Part shown: in pieces, positions 34,067 through 44,084 of the stretch
Layout of the letters: each line of letters begins with the position of its first letter
Position numbering within the stretch: the stretch's first letter is position 1
Source of the DNA: Burkholderiales bacterium
Lineage (GTDB): Bacteria > Pseudomonadota > Gammaproteobacteria > Burkholderiales > Casimicrobiaceae
Reading direction: 5' to 3'
DNA length: 44,609 nucleotides
Assembly (NCBI GenBank): GCA_025354165.1
Contig: JANXNI010000066.1
Span: 1 to 44,609 of the forward strand
The notes under the pieces: generated by a model
Databases searched by the model: none
What the model was told of the DNA's origin: nothing
The model's input: only the letters and a program-made list of their open reading frames with translations
Made by a program: the position numbers and the translations under genes

Positions 34067-34396
34067 CAGACGATTATAGCCATAGGAATTTGAGCAAAAA
34101 AAGCTCGTCGTTAGGCAATTCCCATCAGTTACGTCTATGTTGCAACATCGTCACAACACCGTCGCTGAATTGCGACACAGACAGAGACGTTTCAACAGCT
34201 TTTTCGCATTAACGCCATTCGATTGGGGGAAAGACCATATTTCCCTGTATGTCGACTTGTGTTGAATTGCGCTTCCAGCCCTTCTGAAGTGGAGGATATG
34301 TCAAAAAGCTGCTGCAAAAAGTGCATCGCAAGACTTCATTGCACGAATTTTGCTGTGGCGCAGCATAAATACGTTTGTGCAGCTTGATCGTCCCGA

Positions 34397-35008
34397 TTGA
34401 GTGCAAAAAATGGGTCGTCACGGCGTTTTAAATTGCGAGTTCTACTTCTACACGACACTCAGCATGATTTGCCCGCCGTTGAATCGGTGCTGGCGGCGCA
34501 CGGCTACAACGTGCGAAGTGTTCCGGTCAACGCGCTGACGTTGCAGGACGAAATCGAGCGCTGGAATCCGGAGTTAATCCTGATTGCTTCGGACGACGCG
34601 GCGCGCGACGTGATGGAGCAGGTGTGCGTGGTGTCGCAGTTCCGCGAGCGGCCGATTGTGGTGTTCACCGAAAACGACGATCCGATTGCCATGCGCTTGG
34701 CGATGCAGGCCCGAGTGTCTGCCTATGTCGTAGCAGGACTAAACACGAAACGGCTGCGCTCGGTAATAGCTGTGGCATTAGAGCGCTTTAAATTGGATCA
34801 GCACGAATTTGCACAGCTAGCTGAAGCGCGTCGGCTCGCACAACAAAAAAATACGAATGAGCGCGCTATTGCACGAGCCAAAGCGCTGCTGCGCCGCCGT
34901 GGCATGAGTGAGCCCGATGCGTACGCGCTCCTGCGCTCACAGGCGATGCAGACGCGTTGCTCGATTGCCGAAGCCGCCGAGCGCGTTCTCGCGAACAGTG
35001 GTGCGTAA
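34397..35008 (+). CDS. nasT: ANTAR-domain antiterminator NasT
   Basis: A protein of up to 203 residues. The N-terminal receiver-like domain begins LRVLLLHDTQHDLPAVESVLAAHGY and has LILIASDD where a phospho-acceptor would be expected; it is probably not phosphorylated, as in other NasT. The C-terminal ANTAR domain (about 135-198) shows ERAIARAKALLRRRGMSEPDAYALLRSQAMQTRCSIAEAAERVL. NasT binds paired hairpins in the leader of nitrate operons and prevents termination; such hairpins lie directly downstream (35117-35187). Start is uncertain: TTG at 34397 or TTG at 34433, with no ATG available. No NasS partner gene is present here. Confidence 0.9.
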   Translation: MSAKNGSSRRFKLRVLLLHDTQHDLPAVESVLAAHGYNVRSVPVNALTLQDEIERWNPELILIASDDAARDVMEQVCVVSQFRERPIVVFTENDDPIAMRLAMQARVSAYVVAGLNTKRLRSVIAVALERFKLDQHEFAQLAEARRLAQQKNTNERAIARAKALLRRRGMSEPDAYALLRSQAMQTRCSIAEAAERVLANSGA

Positions 35009-35030: not shown

Positions 35031-35047
35031 CGCACAGACTTGGTGCG
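35031..35047. promoter_or_regulatory. candidate NtrC-binding dyad, GCAC-N7-GTGC
   Basis: CGCACAGACTTGGTGCG has the GCAC-N7-GTGC layout of NtrC sites (consensus TGCACC-N5-GGTGCA). It is centred about 75 bases upstream of the predicted sigma-54 start. A further half site, GGTGCG, overlaps the end of nasT near 35000. Confidence 0.55.
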
Positions 35048-35087
35048 TACTCGCTGAAATGTGGCGGCGTTTGCTCTGAAGTTGTGG

Positions 35088-35103
35088 TGGCACGACTTTC
35101 GCT
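35088..35103 (+). promoter_or_regulatory. probable sigma-54 promoter of the nitrate operon
   Basis: TGGCACGACTTTCGCT matches the sigma-54 consensus TGGCACG-N4-TTGCW at all but one fixed position, keeping the essential GG (35089-35090) and GC (35101-35102) ten bases apart. Transcription would start near 35114, only a few bases before the first ANTAR hairpin. Confidence 0.75.
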
Positions 35104-35116
35104 ATGCAAGGGTGCG

Positions 35117-35187
35117 GCGATCAATGATGATCGCAACAGTCTCTCCAGTCCGAACAACTAGCTTTACTACTTTGAGCACAGGGGCTC
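35117..35187 (+). promoter_or_regulatory. ANTAR (NasT) antiterminator RNA element
   Basis: Hairpin P1 is GCGATC-AATGAT-GATCGC (35117-35134); P2 is GAGC-ACAGGG-GCTC (35174-35187). Both have six-base loops with A at position 1 and G at position 4, the established recognition pattern for ANTAR proteins. The linker is 39 bases, longer than in many known cases. The 3' half of P2 (35181-35187) is also the 5' arm of the following terminator, so P2 and the terminator exclude each other. NasT bound to P1 and P2 would allow read-through. Confidence 0.8.
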
Positions 35188-35221
35188 GTGATCGCAAGGT
35201 CACGCGCCCCCTTTTCTTTTT
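35181..35221 (+). terminator. regulated intrinsic terminator in the nitrate operon leader
   Basis: GGGGC-T-CGTGA (35181-35191) pairs with TCACG-C-GCCCC (35200-35210), loop TCGCAAGG, one mismatch, followed by CTTTTCTTTTT. It ends immediately before the ACGGAG ribosome binding site of the receptor gene, so it must be bypassed for expression. Confidence 0.88.
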
Positions 35222-35235
35222 ACGGAGTTCTTTTT

Positions 35236-36531
35236 ATGAGTCTTGTGCCCGAGTCGTCAGTCCTTGCAGACAAAGCCACGGCGTCGAGTCGTAATGAGCC
35301 GGCGTCAGCCATGCGTCGCAAGCTGGTACAAACCGCAGGCACAGCTAGTTTAATGTCGCTGGTGCCACCGCTCGTACGTCAGGGCGCCTGGGCTCAAGGC
35401 TCCGATGCACCCGAGAAAAGAGAAGTCAAGATTGGCTTCATTCCACTAACGGACTGCGCCAGTGTGGTCATGGCGTCGGTGCTGAAGCTCGACGAAAAAT
35501 ACGGCATCAAAATCATCGCTACCAAAGAGTCAAGCTGGGCGTCGGTACGGGACAAATTGGTGAACGGCGAGCTCGACGCTGCGCACGTTCTCTACGGCCT
35601 GATTTACGGAGTTCACCTTGGCATCGGTGGCCCGAAAAAGGACATGGCCGTGCTCATGACGATCAATAACAACGGTCAGGCGCTTACATTGAGCAATCAG
35701 CTCAAAGATAAAGGCGCGGTGGACGGCTCTTCGCTCGCCGCGCTAATGAAAAAAGAGAAGCGCGAATACACGTTTGCGCAGACCTTTCCCACCGGCACGC
35801 ACGCGATGTGGCTCTACTACTGGCTCGCGGCGAATGGCGTCAATCCGATGACCGAGGCCAAAGTGATTACCGTGCCGCCTCCCCAGATGGTCGCCAATAT
35901 GCGCGTCGGCAATATGGACGGTTTCTCCGTGGGAGAGCCGTGGAACGCGCGCGCCATTTTCGACAAGATCGGATTCACCGTTGCCACGTCCCAGGATATC
36001 TGGACGGATCACCCCGAAAAGGTGCTGGGCACTACCGACGAATTCACCAAAAAGTACCCAAACACGGCGCGCGCGATGGTCGCCGCCATTCTCGAAGCCT
36101 CGCGTTTCATCGACCAGGAAGTCGATAAGAAGAAAACAGCGACGATTCTTGCTGACAAGTCCTACGTTAACGCGCCTGTTGAAGTGATCGAAGACCGTTG
36201 GGAAGGTAAGTACGACAGCGGTAACGGCAAAAAGTGGACGGACGCCAACGCCATGAAATTCCACCGAGATGGTGCGGTCAACTTTCCGTACTTGTCGGAC
36301 GGCATGTGGTTTCTCACGCAGCACAAACGCTGGGGCTTGCTCAAAGAGCATCCCAATTATCTGGGCGTTGCCAGATCGATCAACAAGATCGATATCTACA
36401 AGAAAGCGGCAGCCGCCGCCAAGGTCACGATTCCGAAGAGCGACATGCGCAGTTCGAAATTGATCGATGGCGTTGTGTGGGATGGCAGTAACCCCAAGGC
36501 GTACGCCGATGGCTTCAAGATCAAAGTGTAA
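35236..36531 (+). CDS. nrtA: nitrate ABC transporter substrate-binding protein, CmpA/NrtA family
   Basis: A 431-residue receptor. The N-terminus carries a twin-arginine-like signal after a 26-residue extension (MRRKLVQTAGTASLMSLVPP), with likely cleavage after GAWA. The mature part has VKIGFIPLTDCASVVMA, DAAHVLYGLIYGVHLGIGG and SVGEPWNARAIF, characteristic of NrtA and CmpA receptors for nitrate or bicarbonate. The nitrate role follows from its place with nirBD and nasA. ACGGAG lies eight bases before the ATG. NasS, the sensor paired with NasT elsewhere, belongs to the same family but lacks a signal peptide. Confidence 0.93.
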   Translation: MSLVPESSVLADKATASSRNEPASAMRRKLVQTAGTASLMSLVPPLVRQGAWAQGSDAPEKREVKIGFIPLTDCASVVMASVLKLDEKYGIKIIATKESSWASVRDKLVNGELDAAHVLYGLIYGVHLGIGGPKKDMAVLMTINNNGQALTLSNQLKDKGAVDGSSLAALMKKEKREYTFAQTFPTGTHAMWLYYWLAANGVNPMTEAKVITVPPPQMVANMRVGNMDGFSVGEPWNARAIFDKIGFTVATSQDIWTDHPEKVLGTTDEFTKKYPNTARAMVAAILEASRFIDQEVDKKKTATILADKSYVNAPVEVIEDRWEGKYDSGNGKKWTDANAMKFHRDGAVNFPYLSDGMWFLTQHKRWGLLKEHPNYLGVARSINKIDIYKKAAAAAKVTIPKSDMRSSKLIDGVVWDGSNPKAYADGFKIKV

Positions 36532-36572: not shown

Positions 36573-36606
36573 TCCGCATAAAACTTCAAGATCATTGAGC
36601 CCAAAT

Positions 36607-37548
36607 ATGACCGCCACATTGACTATTGACGCGATGCTGACGACCCCAGGAGACGCATTCGTAGCTGCTATGCCCGCGCCCGAAGCGGTTGTAGAAATCA
36701 CCGCCTTGACCGCCAAACAAATCGCTGCCGCTGCCGACCGCGAAGCACAAACGCAGCTCGCCGTTCGCCGCCGTCGCGAACGCCTTGCGAGCCTTGTGCA
36801 AAGCATCGTGCCCGGCTTGGTCGGTATTCTGATTTTTCTGCTCTTGTGGCAAGGCCTCACACACGTGGCTACGCAAATCCCCGGCCCTGCAAAAGTGTGG
36901 GACAGTGCGGTGAAATTATTCAGCGATCCGTTCTACCGAAAAGGTCCGAACGATCAGGGCATTGGCTGGAATATTCTGGCCTCGTTGCAACGTGTGGGTT
37001 TGGGTTTCGGTCTGGCGGCTTTAGTTGGGATTCCGGCCGGATTCATGATCGGGCGATTTGAGTATCTGAACCGCATGACCTCGCCGATTATCAGTCTGCT
37101 ACGCCCGGTGTCGCCGCTCGCCTGGTTGCCGATTGGACTCATGGTGTTCAAGGCAGCCAATCCTGCGGCGATCTGGGTGATTTTCATCTGCTCCATCTGG
37201 CCGATGATTATCAACACTGCGACCGGTGTGCAGCGAATTCCGCAGGATTATTTGAACGTTGCGCGCGTGCTGAACTTGTCCGAATGGAAAGTATTTACAA
37301 AGATTTTGTTTCCCGCTGTTTTGCCTTACATGTTGACCGGGGTAAAGCTTTCCATTGGTGTTGCATGGCTGGTGATCGTCGCGGCGGAAATGCTCACAGG
37401 TGGTGTCGGCATTGGCTTCTGGCTGTGGGACGAGTGGAACAATCTGGTCGTCGAGCACATCATCATCGCGATCTTCACGATCGGACTCGTCGGTCTCCTG
37501 CTTGAACAGGCGCTGATCTGGATTGCCAAACGATTCCAATTTGATTGA
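36607..37548 (+). CDS. nrtB: nitrate ABC transporter permease
   Basis: A 313-residue inner-membrane protein. After a hydrophilic N-terminal segment of about 65 residues come about six membrane spans, the first VPGLVGILIFLLLWQGLTHV. The EAA-type loop reads LNVARVLNLSEWKVFTKILFPAVLPYMLTGVKLSIG, as in NrtB. GIGFWLWDEWNNL near the end is also typical of nitrate permeases. It lies between the receptor and ATPase genes, 21 bases ahead of the latter. Confidence 0.93.
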   Translation: MTATLTIDAMLTTPGDAFVAAMPAPEAVVEITALTAKQIAAAADREAQTQLAVRRRRERLASLVQSIVPGLVGILIFLLLWQGLTHVATQIPGPAKVWDSAVKLFSDPFYRKGPNDQGIGWNILASLQRVGLGFGLAALVGIPAGFMIGRFEYLNRMTSPIISLLRPVSPLAWLPIGLMVFKAANPAAIWVIFICSIWPMIINTATGVQRIPQDYLNVARVLNLSEWKVFTKILFPAVLPYMLTGVKLSIGVAWLVIVAAEMLTGGVGIGFWLWDEWNNLVVEHIIIAIFTIGLVGLLLEQALIWIAKRFQFD

Positions 37549-37569: not shown

Positions 37570-38364
37570 ATGTCAAACCCGTTTCATCTAGTCGTCGACA
37601 ATGTGGACAAACGCTTCAACACCAAGCAGGGTGAATTCATCGCGATTCGCGACATCAACCTTCGCGTTCAACGCGGCGAATTCACAGCGCTGATCGGTCA
37701 TTCGGGTTGCGGCAAGTCAACACTGCTCAATCTGATTGCCGGTCTCGACGTCGCAACGAACGGCGTACTCGTATGCGCAGGTCGAGAAATTTCGGGGCCG
37801 GGACCGGATCGCGGTGTCGTTTTTCAAAATCATTCACTACTGCCTTGGCTCACCTGTTTTGACAACGTGTACCTGGCTGTTGAACGTGTTTTCTCGTCGA
37901 CGGAAAAGAAGCCCCAACTCGCCGCCCGCACCGAAGCAGCGCTCAAGATGGTCGGCCTCACGCATGCGATGCACAAACATCCGAACGAAATTTCCGGTGG
38001 CATGAAACAGCGCGTCGGCATTGCCAGAGCACTGTCAATTGAGCCCGCCGTACTGTTGCTCGATGAACCCTTCGGCGCGCTCGACGCATTGACGCGTGCC
38101 CATTTGCAGGACGAACTCCTGCGTATCGTCGCCGACACTAAATCAACGGTGGTGATGGTGACGCACGACGTTGATGAGGCCGTATTGCTGTCCGACAAAA
38201 TTGTCATGATGACTAACGGTCCGTCTGCCACGATTGGTGAAATACTGGATGTTCAACTGCCGCGTCCACGAGATCGTCTGGAACTGGCCGAAAACACCGA
38301 CTATCACCACTATCGCAAGGCTGTCGTCGAGTTTTTGTACTCCAAGCAGAAGAAGGCGGCTTAG
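37570..38364 (+). CDS. nrtD: nitrate ABC transporter ATP-binding protein
   Basis: A 264-residue ATPase. Walker A GHSGCGKST near residue 45, Q-loop VFQNHSLLPWLTCFDNVYLAVERVF, signature ISGGMKQRVGIARAL, Walker B LLLDEPFGALDALTRA and the switch His in MVTHDVDEAV. The N-terminal FNTKQGEFIAIRDINLRVQRGEFTALIG matches the NrtD/CmpD group. It lacks the extra receptor-like domain of NrtC, so the transporter is a simple receptor-permease-ATPase set. nirB starts 11 bases after its stop. Confidence 0.93.
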   Translation: MSNPFHLVVDNVDKRFNTKQGEFIAIRDINLRVQRGEFTALIGHSGCGKSTLLNLIAGLDVATNGVLVCAGREISGPGPDRGVVFQNHSLLPWLTCFDNVYLAVERVFSSTEKKPQLAARTEAALKMVGLTHAMHKHPNEISGGMKQRVGIARALSIEPAVLLLDEPFGALDALTRAHLQDELLRIVADTKSTVVMVTHDVDEAVLLSDKIVMMTNGPSATIGEILDVQLPRPRDRLELAENTDYHHYRKAVVEFLYSKQKKAA

Positions 38365-38375
38365 CCGAAATTACC

Positions 38376-40868
38376 ATGAGTAACAAGCAAAAGCTCGCGG
38401 TCATTGGCAATGGTATGGCCGGTATCCGCACCATTGAAGAGTTGCTGAAAATCGCGCCTGACAAATACGAGATCACCGTATTTGGCACGGAGCCCCATCC
38501 CAACTACAACCGCATTTTGTTGTCGCCGGTTTTGGCGGGTGAACAGACGATCAAGGACATCGTCTTGAACGACTGGGATTGGTACACCGACAACGGTATT
38601 AATCTGATCACCGGTAAGACGATCACCGAGATTCATCGCACGCGGCGTGAGCTGACGACGGGTAGCGGCGAGAAGTACCAATATGACCGCCTGGTGATCG
38701 CTACAGGTTCGAATCCGTTCATCCTGCCGATCGAAGGCAAGGGCCTGCCAGGCGTGATTTCGTATCGCGACATTGCCGACACCGAGGCGATGATTGATGC
38801 GGCAAAGATTTACAAAAACGCGGTCGTCATCGGCGGCGGTTTGCTCGGACTTGAGGCGGCGAACGGACTCAAGCTGCGAGGCATGGATGTAACCGTGGTA
38901 CACGTCATGCCTTGGCTCATGGAGCGCCAGCTTGACGAGAAGGCGGGTAAATTGCTGCAAGCCTCACTCGAAGCCAAAGGCATTAGGTTCATGATGCAGG
39001 CGCAGACCGAAGCGCTGATCGCGGGCGAATCGGGTCGCGTCGCGGCGCTGCGCTTCAAGACGGGTGAACAGATTCCTGCGGACATTGTGGTGATGGCTGT
39101 GGGCATTCGACCGAACACTGCGCTCGCTGAAAAATCCGGCTTGCAAGTTAGCCCACGTCCCGGCGGAATCGTCGTGAATGACACGATGCAGACGTTGACC
39201 GACGCACGTATTTACTCGGTTGGCGAGTGCGTCAATCATCGCGGCATGGCGTACGGTCTGGTTGCACCGTTGTTCGAAATGGCCAAAGTCTGCGCGAATC
39301 ATTTGGCCGAATATGGCATTGGTCGCTATGTCGGGTCGGTGACGTCCACCAAGCTCAAGGTTACTGGCGTTGACCTCTTCAGCGCGGGTAACTTTCAAGG
39401 CGCAGCGTCAGGGCGTCCGGAGGACGCGGGCTTAGAAGACATAATTCTTTCGGACCCAATGGGCGGCGTTTACAAGCGCTTGGTCATCAAGGACAACAAG
39501 CTCGTCGGAGCGTGTCTATATGGCGACACGGTCGACGGCTCGTGGTACTTCAAGCTGCTGCGCGAAGGCAAAAACGTTGCCGAAATTCGCGACCAACTTA
39601 TGTTCGGTGAATCGAATATCGGTGACGTGGGCCATGAAGGCAACACCCGCGCAGTGACGATGAAAGATACCGACGAAGTCTGCGGTTGCAATGGCGTGTG
39701 CAAAGGCACGATCACCAAAGCGATCAAAGAAAAAGGTTTGTTTACGCTCGACGAGGTGAGGAAGCACACTAAAGCCTCCTCCTCATGCGGCTCCTGTACG
39801 GGACTCGTCGAGCAACTTCTCATGTTCACCGCGGGCGGTGATTACAGTGCGACACCGAAGATGAAGCCGATGTGCGCCTGCACTGACAGCACGCATCAGA
39901 ACACGCGTGACGCCATTCGCGAACAGAAGTTGTTGTCGGTTCCCGAGGTGATGAAAACGCTCGGCTGGCGCACGACGAACGGTTGTTCGTCATGCCGCCC
40001 CGCGATCAACTATTACCTGCTCTCGACCTGGCCGAAAGAGTACGTCGACGATCCGCAATCGCGCTACATCAACGAACGCGCGCATGCCAACATTCAGAAA
40101 GACGGCACCTTCAGCGTCATCCCGCGTATGTGGGGTGGCGAGACGACGGCAGACGAGTTGCGCCGCATCGCCAATGCAGTAGACAAATACAAAATCCCGA
40201 CTGTGAAAGTGACGGGCGGTCAGCGCATCGATTTGCTCGGTGTGAAGAAGGAAGATTTGCCTGCCGTGTGGAAAGACATCGGCATGCCTTCAGGTCATGC
40301 GTATGCTAAGGCGCTACGGACGGTGAAGACCTGCGTCGGCTCCGAGTGGTGTCGTTTCGGTACACAAGACTCCACGCAAATGGGCAAGGACATGGAGCGT
40401 GCGATGTGGAAGATGTACGCGCCGCACAAAGTGAAATTTGCCGTCAGCGGGTGTCCGCGCAATTGCGCCGAAGCTGGCATAAAAGACGTCGGCGTGATCG
40501 GCGTTGATTCCGGTTGGGAACTCTACGTTGGCGGCAATGGCGGTATCAAAACCGAAGTCGCGCAGTTTTTCGTCAAAGTCAAAACCTCCGAGGAAGTGCT
40601 CGAATACACGGGCGCGTTCATTCAGCTGTACCGCGAAGAGGGCTGGTATCTTGAGCGCACGGTGCACTACCTTGCTCGCGTCGGTCTCGATAACGCCAAA
40701 CAAAAAGTAGTTGAAGATGCGGCGAACCGAAAGGCGCTGTGGGAGCGTTTACAGTTCGCCCTCGATGGCGAACCGGATCCGTGGTTCGAGTTTGAAAAAG
40801 CACGCGTGGACACAAGGCAGTTCATCCCGATCAAACCGATTGCCACCGATACCGTAGCAACCGTTTGA
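38376..40868 (+). CDS. nirB: assimilatory nitrite reductase (NADH), large subunit
   Basis: An 830-residue enzyme that reduces nitrite to ammonia with NADH. The FAD/NAD-binding part (about 1-310) opens LAVIGNGMAGIRTIEELL and includes VVIGGGLLGLEAANGL. Two BFD-type [2Fe-2S] segments follow, one with CGCNGVCKGTITKAI and SSCGSCTGLV (about 430-490) and one with CACTDST and NGCSSCRPAI (about 500-550). The C-terminal siroheme/[4Fe-4S] domain has CVGSEWCRFG near residue 650 and SGCPRNCAEAG near residue 690. Length fits NirB. Together with nirD and nasA it forms the cytoplasmic nitrate-to-ammonia route. Confidence 0.97.
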   Translation: MSNKQKLAVIGNGMAGIRTIEELLKIAPDKYEITVFGTEPHPNYNRILLSPVLAGEQTIKDIVLNDWDWYTDNGINLITGKTITEIHRTRRELTTGSGEKYQYDRLVIATGSNPFILPIEGKGLPGVISYRDIADTEAMIDAAKIYKNAVVIGGGLLGLEAANGLKLRGMDVTVVHVMPWLMERQLDEKAGKLLQASLEAKGIRFMMQAQTEALIAGESGRVAALRFKTGEQIPADIVVMAVGIRPNTALAEKSGLQVSPRPGGIVVNDTMQTLTDARIYSVGECVNHRGMAYGLVAPLFEMAKVCANHLAEYGIGRYVGSVTSTKLKVTGVDLFSAGNFQGAASGRPEDAGLEDIILSDPMGGVYKRLVIKDNKLVGACLYGDTVDGSWYFKLLREGKNVAEIRDQLMFGESNIGDVGHEGNTRAVTMKDTDEVCGCNGVCKGTITKAIKEKGLFTLDEVRKHTKASSSCGSCTGLVEQLLMFTAGGDYSATPKMKPMCACTDSTHQNTRDAIREQKLLSVPEVMKTLGWRTTNGCSSCRPAINYYLLSTWPKEYVDDPQSRYINERAHANIQKDGTFSVIPRMWGGETTADELRRIANAVDKYKIPTVKVTGGQRIDLLGVKKEDLPAVWKDIGMPSGHAYAKALRTVKTCVGSEWCRFGTQDSTQMGKDMERAMWKMYAPHKVKFAVSGCPRNCAEAGIKDVGVIGVDSGWELYVGGNGGIKTEVAQFFVKVKTSEEVLEYTGAFIQLYREEGWYLERTVHYLARVGLDNAKQKVVEDAANRKALWERLQFALDGEPDPWFEFEKARVDTRQFIPIKPIATDTVATV

Positions 40869-41297: not shown

Positions 41298-41336
41298 TTG
41301 GTGGCATGCCGAGCCCTTGTGGATCGGGGCGCAACA

Positions 41337-44084
41337 TTGCCTGACGTAAAAACCACCTGCCCGTATTGCGGTGTCGGCTGCGGCGTGTTGGCGACGACGG
41401 ATGGGACGAAAATCACCGCCGTGCGCGGCGATCCAGAGCACCCCGCGAACTTCGGTCGTCTCTGCACCAAAGGCAGCACGCTTCATCTGACGACAACGCC
41501 CTACGGCCGCGCGCTACACCCCGAAATGCGAACCTCTCGGGAGGAGCCACGCAAGCGCGTAAGTTGGGATGTTGTGCTCGATACGCTGGTCGACAAGTTC
41601 GCAAAAACTATCGCTGAGCACGGCCCAGATAGCGTCGGTTTCTATATTTCAGGTCAATTGCTGACAGAGGACTACTACGTCTTCAACAAGCTCGCCAAAG
41701 GCTTGATCGGCACCAACAACGTCGACACCAATTCACGACTTTGTATGTCGTCCGCCGTTGCGGGCTACAAGGCGACGCTGGGTGCCGATGCACCTCCGGC
41801 CTGCTACGACGATTTGAACCATGCGGAATTGATCGTTATTGCCGGCAGTAACGCCGCCTGGGCGCATCCGATTTTGTATCGCCGACTTGAGGATGCGAAA
41901 GAAAAAAAACCGGCGCTCAAAGTCGTTTGCATCGATCCGCGTCGTACCGAGACAGCGCGCGCCGCCGACTTGCATTTGCCGATCCTACCCGGAACTGACG
42001 TGGCGCTGTTCAACGCCATCCTGCATTGGCTCATGTGGGAGGACGCGACCGACAACGCCTACATCGCCGAACACACAGAAGGTTTCGCTGAACTTAAAGC
42101 CGCCGTGCGCGAATGCTCGCCCGCGTGGGCGGCGCGCATATGTGGCGTGAACGAATCGCAAATCGTTGCGCTGGCGACGTGGTGGAAGGAATCTAAGGCC
42201 ACGCTCTCACTTTATTGTCAGGGCCTCAATCAGTCATCGAGCGGTACTGACAAAAACGCAGCGCTCATCAACCTGCATCTCGCCACCTCGCAGATCGGAA
42301 AACCGGGCGCGGGACCGTTCTCGTTGACCGGGCAACCAAACGCGATGGGTGGACGCGAAGTCGGAGGGCTCGCTAATTTGCTGCCGGGACATCGCGACGT
42401 CGTGAACCCGGAGCATCGCGCTGAAATCGCGAAACTGTGGGGCGTCGAATCGCTACCGCCTGTTCCAGGCAAAACCGCTGTCGAAATGTTCGACGCCGTG
42501 AAGCGCGGTGAGATCAAACTTTTGTGGATCGCCTGCACGAACCCGGCGCAGTCGATGCCGGATTTGCGGGCCGTCGCCGAGTCGTTTGAGAACGCCGAAT
42601 GCGTGATCGTGCAGGAAGCGTTTCGCACGACTGAATCAGCAAAACTCGCGGACATTTTGCTGCCCGCCAGCACTTGGGGTGAAAAGCACGGTACGGTGAC
42701 CAATTCCGAGCGACGTATCACGCATGTAAACGGTGCGCTGCCGCCGCCCGGCGAGGCGCGTCATGATTGGGACATTGCGGTTGAGTTCGCGCGGCGGCTG
42801 GAGGCGAAATTGCACCCGAACCGGGCCACGCTGTTTCCGTACCAATCGCCGGAAGAAATCTTCAACGAACATCGCGAAAGCACGCGCGGTCGAGACCTAG
42901 ATATCACGGGCATGAGCTACGCGTTGCTCGACACTGATGGTCCGCAGCAATGGCCGCTTCGAGGAGGAGAAACTGTTGGGAGACTTCGTCTCTACGAAGA
43001 CGGAATTTTCCCGACTGCCAGTGGCAAGGCCAAGTTCAAAGTCACGCCGTACAAGGGCGTGGCCGAGCCGGTTGATGCGCGCTACCCGTTGGCACTCACC
43101 ACCGGTCGTCTGCGCGATCAATGGCACGGCATGAGCCGCACTGGTCGCGTGCCGCAGCTTTATGGTCACGAGCCGGAGCCGATGCTGACCATGAACACGA
43201 ACGACGCTGCACGTCGTGGTCTGGTGGCCGGCGAAGTTGTGAAAGTTGCGTCGCGTCGCGGTGAGCTGATGCTGCGCCTTGCGGTGAGTGATGATGTGCG
43301 CTCGGCGCAATGCTATTTGCCGATGCATTGGGGCAAGCTCTCGCTTGCCGCATCGGGCTCGCACGGTATCAACGCGTTGACAATTTCGACGTTCGATCCG
43401 GTGTCGAAGCAGCCCGAACTCAAACACGCTGCGGTGCGCGTGGATCGGGCTGAACTAGCGTGGTCGCTCGTCGCGTTTGCGTATGCGGAACACGGGCGTG
43501 ACCCGGTCGCAGTGTGCGATGAGCTTCGGGAGATCGCGCGCGATTGGTCGGTCGCAGGAGGCGCGACGTTTGCCAGCACCACGCTCATCGGTTCGGAGCG
43601 TCCGGGTGTCGTACTGCGCTTGGCCGCAGAAAAAGCGCCGGAGCGAACCGCACTCGAACAAATTGACCGTGTACTTGGCCTGACCGGACTTGCCACGCTG
43701 GCTTACGATGATGTTCGACGCAATTTGAGCCGCCGCGTTCGCATCGAGGACGGGCGACTGGCCGGCGTTCGCCTCGCGGGCGATCTTGCCGCCGAGCCGT
43801 GGATGCGCGATTTCTTTTTATCCGGAGCCTCGGTTGTCGAGCTACGTCAGCGCTTACTTGCTGGCAGCGCCGCAGCGCCTGAGGGTTTCAAAGCGCGCGG
43901 CAAAGTGGTGTGTAACTGCTTCAGCGTGTCCGAGAGCGAGATTATTGAATTCTGCGCTGCGACGTCGGGCGACGCACCGGGCAAGCTCGTAGCGTTACAA
44001 AGTGCAAAGGAGTGCGGAACCAACTGCGGCTCATGTTTGCCGGAATTGCGTACTTTGGTCGCCGCCAGCGTCATTGCCGCGTAG
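41337..44084 (+). CDS. nasA: assimilatory nitrate reductase, catalytic subunit
   Basis: A 915-residue molybdenum enzyme that reduces nitrate to nitrite in the cytoplasm. The N-terminal [4Fe-4S] ligands are CPYCGVGCGV with a further Cys in RLCTKG. The bis-MGD core spans roughly residues 60-710, with SRLCMSSAVAGYK and GREVGGLANLLPGHRD; the MGD C-terminal domain has ALTTGRLRDQWHGMSRTG. An added C-terminal BFD-type [2Fe-2S] segment has CNCFSVSESEI and CGTNCGSCLPEL. TTG at 41337 gives MPDVKTTCPYC, the usual length before the first cysteines, with GGGG upstream; TTG 41298, GTG 41301 or GTG 41319 are alternatives. No signal peptide, as expected. Confidence 0.95.
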   Translation: MPDVKTTCPYCGVGCGVLATTDGTKITAVRGDPEHPANFGRLCTKGSTLHLTTTPYGRALHPEMRTSREEPRKRVSWDVVLDTLVDKFAKTIAEHGPDSVGFYISGQLLTEDYYVFNKLAKGLIGTNNVDTNSRLCMSSAVAGYKATLGADAPPACYDDLNHAELIVIAGSNAAWAHPILYRRLEDAKEKKPALKVVCIDPRRTETARAADLHLPILPGTDVALFNAILHWLMWEDATDNAYIAEHTEGFAELKAAVRECSPAWAARICGVNESQIVALATWWKESKATLSLYCQGLNQSSSGTDKNAALINLHLATSQIGKPGAGPFSLTGQPNAMGGREVGGLANLLPGHRDVVNPEHRAEIAKLWGVESLPPVPGKTAVEMFDAVKRGEIKLLWIACTNPAQSMPDLRAVAESFENAECVIVQEAFRTTESAKLADILLPASTWGEKHGTVTNSERRITHVNGALPPPGEARHDWDIAVEFARRLEAKLHPNRATLFPYQSPEEIFNEHRESTRGRDLDITGMSYALLDTDGPQQWPLRGGETVGRLRLYEDGIFPTASGKAKFKVTPYKGVAEPVDARYPLALTTGRLRDQWHGMSRTGRVPQLYGHEPEPMLTMNTNDAARRGLVAGEVVKVASRRGELMLRLAVSDDVRSAQCYLPMHWGKLSLAASGSHGINALTISTFDPVSKQPELKHAAVRVDRAELAWSLVAFAYAEHGRDPVAVCDELREIARDWSVAGGATFASTTLIGSERPGVVLRLAAEKAPERTALEQIDRVLGLTGLATLAYDDVRRNLSRRVRIEDGRLAGVRLAGDLAAEPWMRDFFLSGASVVELRQRLLAGSAAAPEGFKARGKVVCNCFSVSESEIIEFCAATSGDAPGKLVALQSAKECGTNCGSCLPELRTLVAASVIAA

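Follow-up and report, generated by a model that had tools for sequence, protein, structure and literature searches.

A conserved ANTAR attenuator leader with a long linker between its hairpins, located between nasT and nrtA in a Burkholderiales bacterium

What does the short stretch between a nasT-like gene and nrtA do, and how could a NasT protein encoded there learn of nitrate? The window, i.e., the whole stretch of 44,609 nucleotides analysed (contig JANXNI010000066.1, from a bacterium of the Casimicrobiaceae), carries the following genes around this locus.

34397–35008, + strand: nasT-like ANTAR regulator (Pfam ANTAR 41.1 bits, no Response_reg match)
35236–36531, + strand: nrtA, nitrate-binding protein (NMT1_2 335.7 bits; start codon ATG at 35236; twin-arginine type signal MRRKLVQTAG)
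36595–37548, + strand: nrtB-like permease
37570–38364, + strand: nrtC-like ATPase
38376–40868, + strand: nirB-like nitrite reductase
41298–44084, + strand: nasA-like molybdopterin nitrate reductase (putative start codon)

The original prediction, made from the letters of this DNA, described the stretch before nrtA as a sigma-54-driven ANTAR attenuator leader with NasT encoded next door, and an ANTAR protein is indeed encoded directly upstream of the leader. The homologous loci and the genomes of the comparison set are numbered L### and G###, respectively, and G000 is the window genome, which is 95% complete. The assembly also has a second nasT-leader-nrtA copy (L036, on G000:C25), carried by a contig of 3.3 kb; its NasT is 89% identical to that of the window, and the copy may belong to a sister strain in the bin.

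Reading the leader base by base, we found all the elements named in the original prediction, in the order dyad, promoter, two hairpins, terminator, and ribosome binding site, across 35031–35238.

35031–35047, + strand: NtrC-like dyad CGCAC-N7-GTGCG, recognized from the sequence; its right half, TTTGGTGC-like, recurs in relatives
35088–35103, + strand: sigma-54 promoter TGGCACGACTTTCGCT, recognized from the sequence and kept in the genus leaders
35117–35134, + strand: P1 hairpin GCGATC-AATGAT-GATCGC (6 bp, loop A1/G4, C-G closing pair), with covariation
35135–35173, + strand: P1–P2 linker, 39 nt
35137–35157, + strand: linker motif CAGTCTCTCCAGTCCGAACAA, conserved in the near clade
35174–35187, + strand: P2 hairpin GAGC-ACAGGG-GCTC (4 bp, loop A1/G4, C-G closing pair)
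35181–35221, + strand: intrinsic terminator (stem 35181–35210, T tract 35212–35221)
35224–35227, + strand: ribosome binding site GGAG, recognized from the sequence

The sigma-54 site consists of GG at 35089–35090 and GC at 35101–35102 separated by N10, which places the predicted start near 35114, and P1 begins three bases past this position, as had been proposed. P2 and the terminator overlap by GGGGCTC (35181–35187), in agreement with the seven shared bases claimed before. Folding of the leader, which had been suggested as a check, gave −35.7 kcal/mol for the RNA of 35115–35222 (z = −3.65), and none of 200 shuffles was as good. The locus thus shows the dual-hairpin organization that defines ANTAR targets, with stems of at least 3 bp, A1/G4 hexaloops, and a P2 that competes with a terminator. 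In an Rfam scan of the window, none of the families scored at or above its gathering cut-off; a permissive Rfam scan of the leader region returned only SNORD109A, GcvB, and Ref68, near or above E = 2. A simple terminator scan listed two other weak sites at 35051–35069 and left the terminator at 35181–35221 unlisted, which we think is due to a mismatch in its stem. A repeat common to P1 and the terminator loop, TGATCGCAA, was dismissed, being absent as a conserved feature in L011–L013.

The sigma-54 site is the sole exact match to TGGCACGNNNTTNGCW within the window, and the window genome contains one rpoN match and an ntrC above the curated cut-off. A GG-N10-GC element and rpoN are therefore both present, and the sigma-54 promoter claimed originally is upheld. 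The claim of control by NtrC held in part: ntrC, rpoN, and the dyad are present, but the dyad string shows no enrichment (five copies of GCAC-N7-GTGC in the window, with 2.15 expected), its left arm is absent in some relatives, and only the right half recurs widely. In an ntrC mutant of Burkholderia cenocepacia, nasT and the next gene, which encodes a nitrate-binding protein, were decreased (PMC5491218). A TTTGGTGCA-like half site, often followed by TGCAGCA, was seen upstream of the sigma-54 element in the nasT–nrtA intergenic stretches of several families. Another recurrent block, T[TC]GCA[CT]-N5-TTGCTGT, is located at 34339–34360 on the + strand and upstream of nasT in L010–L014 and L036; it is mostly followed by GCAGCA or similar, with a spacing like that of a sigma-54 site and without the GG.

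Conservation of the leader was examined in the genus set, which comprises 17 genomes of Casimicrobiaceae kin. NasT was matched in 14 of them, two of the matches being short, and 14 copies of the leader were obtained from 13 genomes. The P1 loop has A1 and G4 in all 14 leaders; the P2 loop has G4 in all 14 and A1 in 13, with G at position 1 in L017. The P2 hairpin GAGC-N6-GCTC is found in all 13 genus leaders that were folded. For P1, 96.4% of the cells in the 14 leaders are paired, compared with 77.7% after shuffling (0/500 as high), and the covariation score is 0.592 versus 0.212 in the shuffles (0/500 as high). Four of the six P1 pairs changed on both sides, compared with 2.3 in shuffles, 18 of 500 of which reached four. 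Ten non-redundant genus leaders contain 18 A1/G4 hexaloop hairpins, against a shuffle mean of 0.37 and a maximum of 2. Covariation support for the terminator is modest (0.159 versus 0.114 in shuffles, 13/500 as high, in eight leaders with terminators of other shape left out). We conclude that the locus is a real, conserved ANTAR attenuator leader. The leader of L035 looks intact beside a nasT match of about 42 residues and an nrtA match that starts from about residue 284; the assembly that holds it, G008, is 79% complete.

The NasT protein retains the residues expected of a partner for these hairpins. In EutV, the hexaloops are contacted by Tyr164, Arg168, and Met172 (PMC8934654). When these were matched by eye to an alignment of 21 NasT rows, the counterparts R180 and M184 were invariant and Y176 was nearly so, and binding of the hairpins by NasT is predicted from these kept residues. 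We consider it very probable that the locus is the attenuator leader of the nitrate assimilation operon, opened by NasT. From the anatomy, its conservation, the covariation of P1, and the retained NasT residues, we infer activation by NtrC, binding of NasT, and antitermination as follows. RNA polymerase with sigma-54, probably switched on by NtrC when nitrogen is short, would start near 35114. By default, the RNA would fold into the terminator at 35181–35210 and transcription would halt in the T tract. With active NasT, the ANTAR domains would grip the hexaloops of P1 and P2; P2 would then take seven bases of the terminator, and the polymerase would continue into nrtABC and the reductase genes.

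Much of this logic has precedents. Transcription of the NalA leader of the Pseudomonas nirBD operon begins at an NtrC-controlled sigma-54 promoter, and NasT allows readthrough (review PMC12830290); the two layers are the same and come in the same order, so that the two-layer combination of sigma-54/NtrC and NasT antitermination is already known. At the level of anatomy, the window has the same sigma-54 start, ANTAR hairpins, terminator, and downstream nitrate operon; it differs in that its leader lies ahead of nrtABC and that no NasS was found, and its linker is long. The eut leaders recognized by EutV likewise possess two A1/G4 hexaloops and a P2 that overlaps the terminator (PMC3369931, PMC8934654), but EutV is a phosphorylated response regulator, whereas the window NasT has alanine at the corresponding place. 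The NasR/nasF system of Klebsiella shares the nitrate operon, the ANTAR antitermination, the C-G closing pairs, and the A1/G4 loops (PMC7496416); NasR senses nitrate through its own NIT domain (PMC3369931), whereas Pfam finds only ANTAR in the window NasT. In the NasS-NasT system of Paracoccus, an ANTAR NasT also occurs near a nas leader (PMC3795266, PMC5424462); the window differs in having no NasS that we could find and in the position of the leader between nasT and nrtA. The leader is a variant of this known kind in three features: a long linker with a core conserved in the near clade, a NasT that lacks the phospho-aspartate and for which no NasS was found, and a linker in the place where 24 of 72 leaders of other families have a middle hairpin.

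The original prediction had noted that the 39-base linker is longer than expected, and the comparison agrees. The linkers of 13 genus leaders range from 30 to 51 nt, and that of L015 is 85 nt. In the eut leaders of Enterococcus faecalis, by contrast, the linkers are 5–12 nt, and linkers of 3 and 14 nt both cut induction (PMC3369931); antitermination by EutV in vitro was abolished when the linker was extended by 20 nt (PMC8934654). Linkers of a curated set of actinobacterial ANTAR RNAs are 2–25 nt long (PMC8164766), and the original definition used for the search of ANTAR RNAs mentions a "variable linker" only (PMC3369931). The linker of the window lies outside these printed ranges (5–12 and 2–25 nt), and we therefore file the locus as a variant and not as a plain member. 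In the portions of the open-access PMC literature consulted, no long linkers, NasS-less NasT proteins, or three-hairpin leaders were found. The printed spacing rule was tested with a single protein, EutV, and one curated RNA set is limited to 2–25 nt; searches with such limits would overlook this class of leaders, and natural leaders with linkers of 30–51 nt permit a direct test of the rule. Because the linker exceeds the printed spacings, NasT must either span a flexible tether of 39 nt, or something binds or compacts the linker.

The linker contains a conserved core. We defined the near clade as the seven leaders with a NasT that shares at least 65% identity with that of the window (the window, its sister copy, and L010–L014). 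The motif CAGTCTCTCCAGTCCGAACAA is identical at 21 of 21 positions in six of these and at 19 of 21 in L013; the value for L035, outside this group, is likewise 19 of 21. Compared by position only, the 26 nt past the P1 stem show a mean identity of 0.92 (minimum 0.85) among the seven near-clade leaders and 0.62 (minimum 0.15) among all 13 leaders given. Farther leaders retain remnants, namely GGTCTCTCCAGACG in L016 and L017, GATGTCTCTCTA in L018 and L019, and GTACTCTCCAAC in L020, and the linker of L015 is without the motif. Core conservation, as judged from these linkers, is accordingly limited to the near clade, and farther leaders keep CTCTC or lack it. In eight leaders cut out by promoter and motif patterns, for which the high identity of those two segments is partly built in, the identity was 0.79 in P1 and 0.80 in the rest of the terminator, compared with 0.48 in the rest of the linker, 0.26 in the 60 nt upstream of the promoter, 0.37 from the promoter to P1, and 0.46 in the 60 nt past the terminator. 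When up to three mismatches were allowed, CAGTCTCTCCAGTCCGAACAA occurred at leader sites only, in 7 of the 17 genus genomes. CTCTC is found at +28 to +36 in nine of the ten non-redundant genus leaders and is absent from +1 to +84 of 72 leaders outside the genus. GTCTC[CT]C[CT] occurs in two of these 72 leaders (L076 and L131) against 0.06 expected, with a shuffle maximum of 2; as this pattern was chosen post hoc, its occurrence outside the genus is a lead only. L076 and L131, which belong to other families, carry GTCTCCCC at the same place between two distant hairpins. The linkers of L013 and L035 have an extra hairpin (GGGTCGTTTGACCC and GAGTGTTTTCACTC, respectively) inserted past the motif.

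Several functions of this core can be imagined. When the terminated leader is folded at minimum energy, the motif stays single-stranded, and CUCUCC resembles an anti-Shine-Dalgarno seed. Together with the conservation in the near clade, this would fit a terminated leader that also acts in trans as a small RNA, with a 5′ hairpin, a single-stranded conserved seed, and a terminator with a U tail. We regard this as improbable, since the exact 12-mer complement CTGGAGAGACTG occurs in five of the 17 genomes and lies at the leader in all five; further sites off the leader were found only once each in G001 and G006, and the 12-mer complement search of the 17 genomes revealed no conserved target. A built-in switch through base pairing of the linker with P2 (GUCUCU-AGRGGC and GCUU-GAGC) is about equally doubtful: by eye, the first helix forms in 8 of 13 genus minimum-energy folds cut at the end of P2, but shuffled linkers form duplexes of comparable energy (fraction as good 0.10–0.89 for the first helix and 0.14–0.95 for the second), and the changes observed are one-sided. 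The motif can hardly be part of a short upstream reading frame. Such a frame is open in the window from ATG 35124 through the linker, but no ribosome site was seen ahead of this ATG, L011 and L013 are without the ATG, and an in-frame stop interrupts the motif in L013 and L035; not being kept in relatives, the frame was discarded.

To place the long linker, the leader was compared with those of other families. From the loci we collected 89 distinct nasT–nrtA leaders with a sigma-54-like site, reduced to 82 (10 genus and 72 others) by thinning at 85% identity, in a sample biased by the requirement for that site and by the origin of 80 loci as the best matches to one peptide pattern. The promoter-anchored extraction skipped 50 loci, of which 18 had no gap before the NrtA-like gene, 8 had no sigma-54 site, and 24 had no nrtA match in the stretch examined. 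The 72 non-genus leaders contain 146 A1/G4 hexaloop hairpins against 4.7 in shuffled sequences, and any other loop identity gives at most 11. The first hairpin begins at +1 to +9 from the predicted start in 56 of the 76 non-redundant leaders that have a hairpin, most commonly at +4 (22 leaders), and the closing pair is C-G in 163 of 175 hairpins, a feature not demanded by the selection.

The leaders of the other families resemble that of the window in the sigma-54 site (which was required), in a first hairpin often near +4, and in a P2 further on, but 24 of the 72 differ from the genus in possessing a third, middle A1/G4 hairpin where the genus has its linker. Counting non-overlapping A1/G4 hairpins, we found three in 24 leaders, two in 37, one in 6, and none in 5; in 100 shuffles of each of the leaders, none had three. 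The hairpins of the 24 three-hairpin leaders start at about +1 to +6, +24 to +41, and +51 to +71, and they come from Duganella, Collimonas, Glaciimonas, Undibacterium, Comamonadaceae, Sulfuricellaceae, and others (L023, L025, L054, L065, L088, L090, L098, L102, L103, L108, L109, L113, L116, L117, L120, L123, L132, L134, L137, L143, L155, L156, L158, and L159). Leaders of this type raise the possibility that a single transcript is loaded with more than one NasT dimer. In the genus leaders, the first hairpin starts between about +1 and +7 and P2 between about +55 and +71, with no middle A1/G4 hairpin; L015, with P2 near +110, is the exception. A middle A1/G4 hairpin with stems of 3 bp hidden in the linker was also sought and was found in none of the 13 genus leaders. 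Two-hairpin leaders with long linkers occur elsewhere (L042, 39 nt; L136, 38 nt; L131, 37 nt; L076, 28 nt; L121, 27 nt; L157, 26 nt), so that a long linker by itself does not set the genus apart. On a NasT tree of 85 rows, the genus is recovered as a single clade (100/100) with a long branch (1.22) leading to it, and the distribution of the three-hairpin rows needs eight changes, a pattern that fits a loss of the middle hairpin in the genus as well as its never having been gained.

The other difference concerns the input. The receiver of the window NasT is degenerate, reading ILIASDDAARD with alanine at the phospho-aspartate place. In the alignment of 21 rows, all 12 genus NasT rows have alanine where all 9 other rows have aspartate; we read this column as the phospho-acceptor site from the receiver fold. 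In Paracoccus, nitrate is sensed by NasS, which resembles NrtA, and loss of NasS renders nas activity constitutive (PMC3795266). We searched for NasS with a single query, a NasS-like protein adjoining nasT in L030 (PF13379, 222.9 bits). Matches were obtained in 13 of the 17 genus genomes, namely the NrtA beside nasT and weaker ones in G004, G007, G008, and G016. All four weaker matches have a twin-arginine type signal by eye, and a permease gene adjoins three of them, while the contig of the fourth ends there; none of the four therefore looks like NasS. Within the window genome, no NasS was found either: leaving aside NrtA and its copy, PF13379 (NMT1_2) has matches of 44, 35, and 27 bits, and the two higher-scoring proteins carry Sec-type signals as judged by eye. 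An ANTAR NasT is thus present in this 95% complete genome, and a cytoplasmic NasS was not detected with the one query, so that the locus is not filed as a NasS-NasT system. A relay of nitrate by NasT, part of the original prediction, stays hypothetical, with NasS not found in the genome or the genus and NasT lacking the phospho-aspartate. A search of plasmids gave distant NasT matches.

One answer is that NasT is always active in the genus, NasS being gone, and that the leader does not measure nitrate, control being exerted by NtrC and the amount of NasT. The missing NasS candidate in G000 and the 17 genus genomes, the alanine of the receiver, and the Paracoccus phenotype speak for this answer, which we hold to be a serious possibility at rather less than an even chance. 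Against it, conservation of the attenuator would be puzzling for an element without any use, and a divergent or unrelated sensor could exist. Tentatively, the switch may have been re-wired, so that an orphan NasT, without NasS or a phospho-site, reads the hexaloops across 30–51 nt, and a single-stranded linker element replaces the middle hairpin found in other betaproteobacteria and binds a further partner or NasT itself. Such an arrangement, which we judge possible and somewhat unlikely, would run against the spacing rule of EutV.

The layout with NasS undetected is common. Among 150 genomes of the order, a NasS/NrtA-like gene lies less than 200 nt from the ANTAR end in 5 rows and 200–1500 nt past it in 40 rows (39 genomes), and 33 of these 40 are in genomes with a single such match, at a threshold of E ≤ 1e-30 that a divergent NasS could escape. 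These counts use 66 of 100 ANTAR rows; the remaining 34 contribute no further row within 1.5 kb of a match. How NasT learns of nitrate is thus a question raised by the nasT-leader-nrtA layout in general. NrtA itself might replace NasS: exported folded by the Tat pathway and briefly cytoplasmic, its nitrate-free precursor would hold NasT and its nitrate-bound form would free it. The resemblance of NasS to NrtA, the 33 single-match rows, and the twin-arginine motif, which precedes NrtA in 18 of 19 rows (12 of them genus; 21 loci given), are consistent with this idea. We consider it unlikely, as it is pure inference and the twin-arginine signal is just as common in other families and hence non-discriminating.

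Other inputs can be named by analogy or from neighboring genes. In Pseudomonas, the interaction of NasT with NalA is reported to be weakened when c-di-GMP binds to NasT (review PMC12830290), and by this analogy c-di-GMP is a possible further input to the NasT of the genus. In L178 (G007) and L179 (G004), a second NrtA-like protein and a permease adjoin a response regulator gene, in L178 also a histidine kinase gene; the regulator, NarL-like by eye, is possibly part of a separate nitrate sensor.
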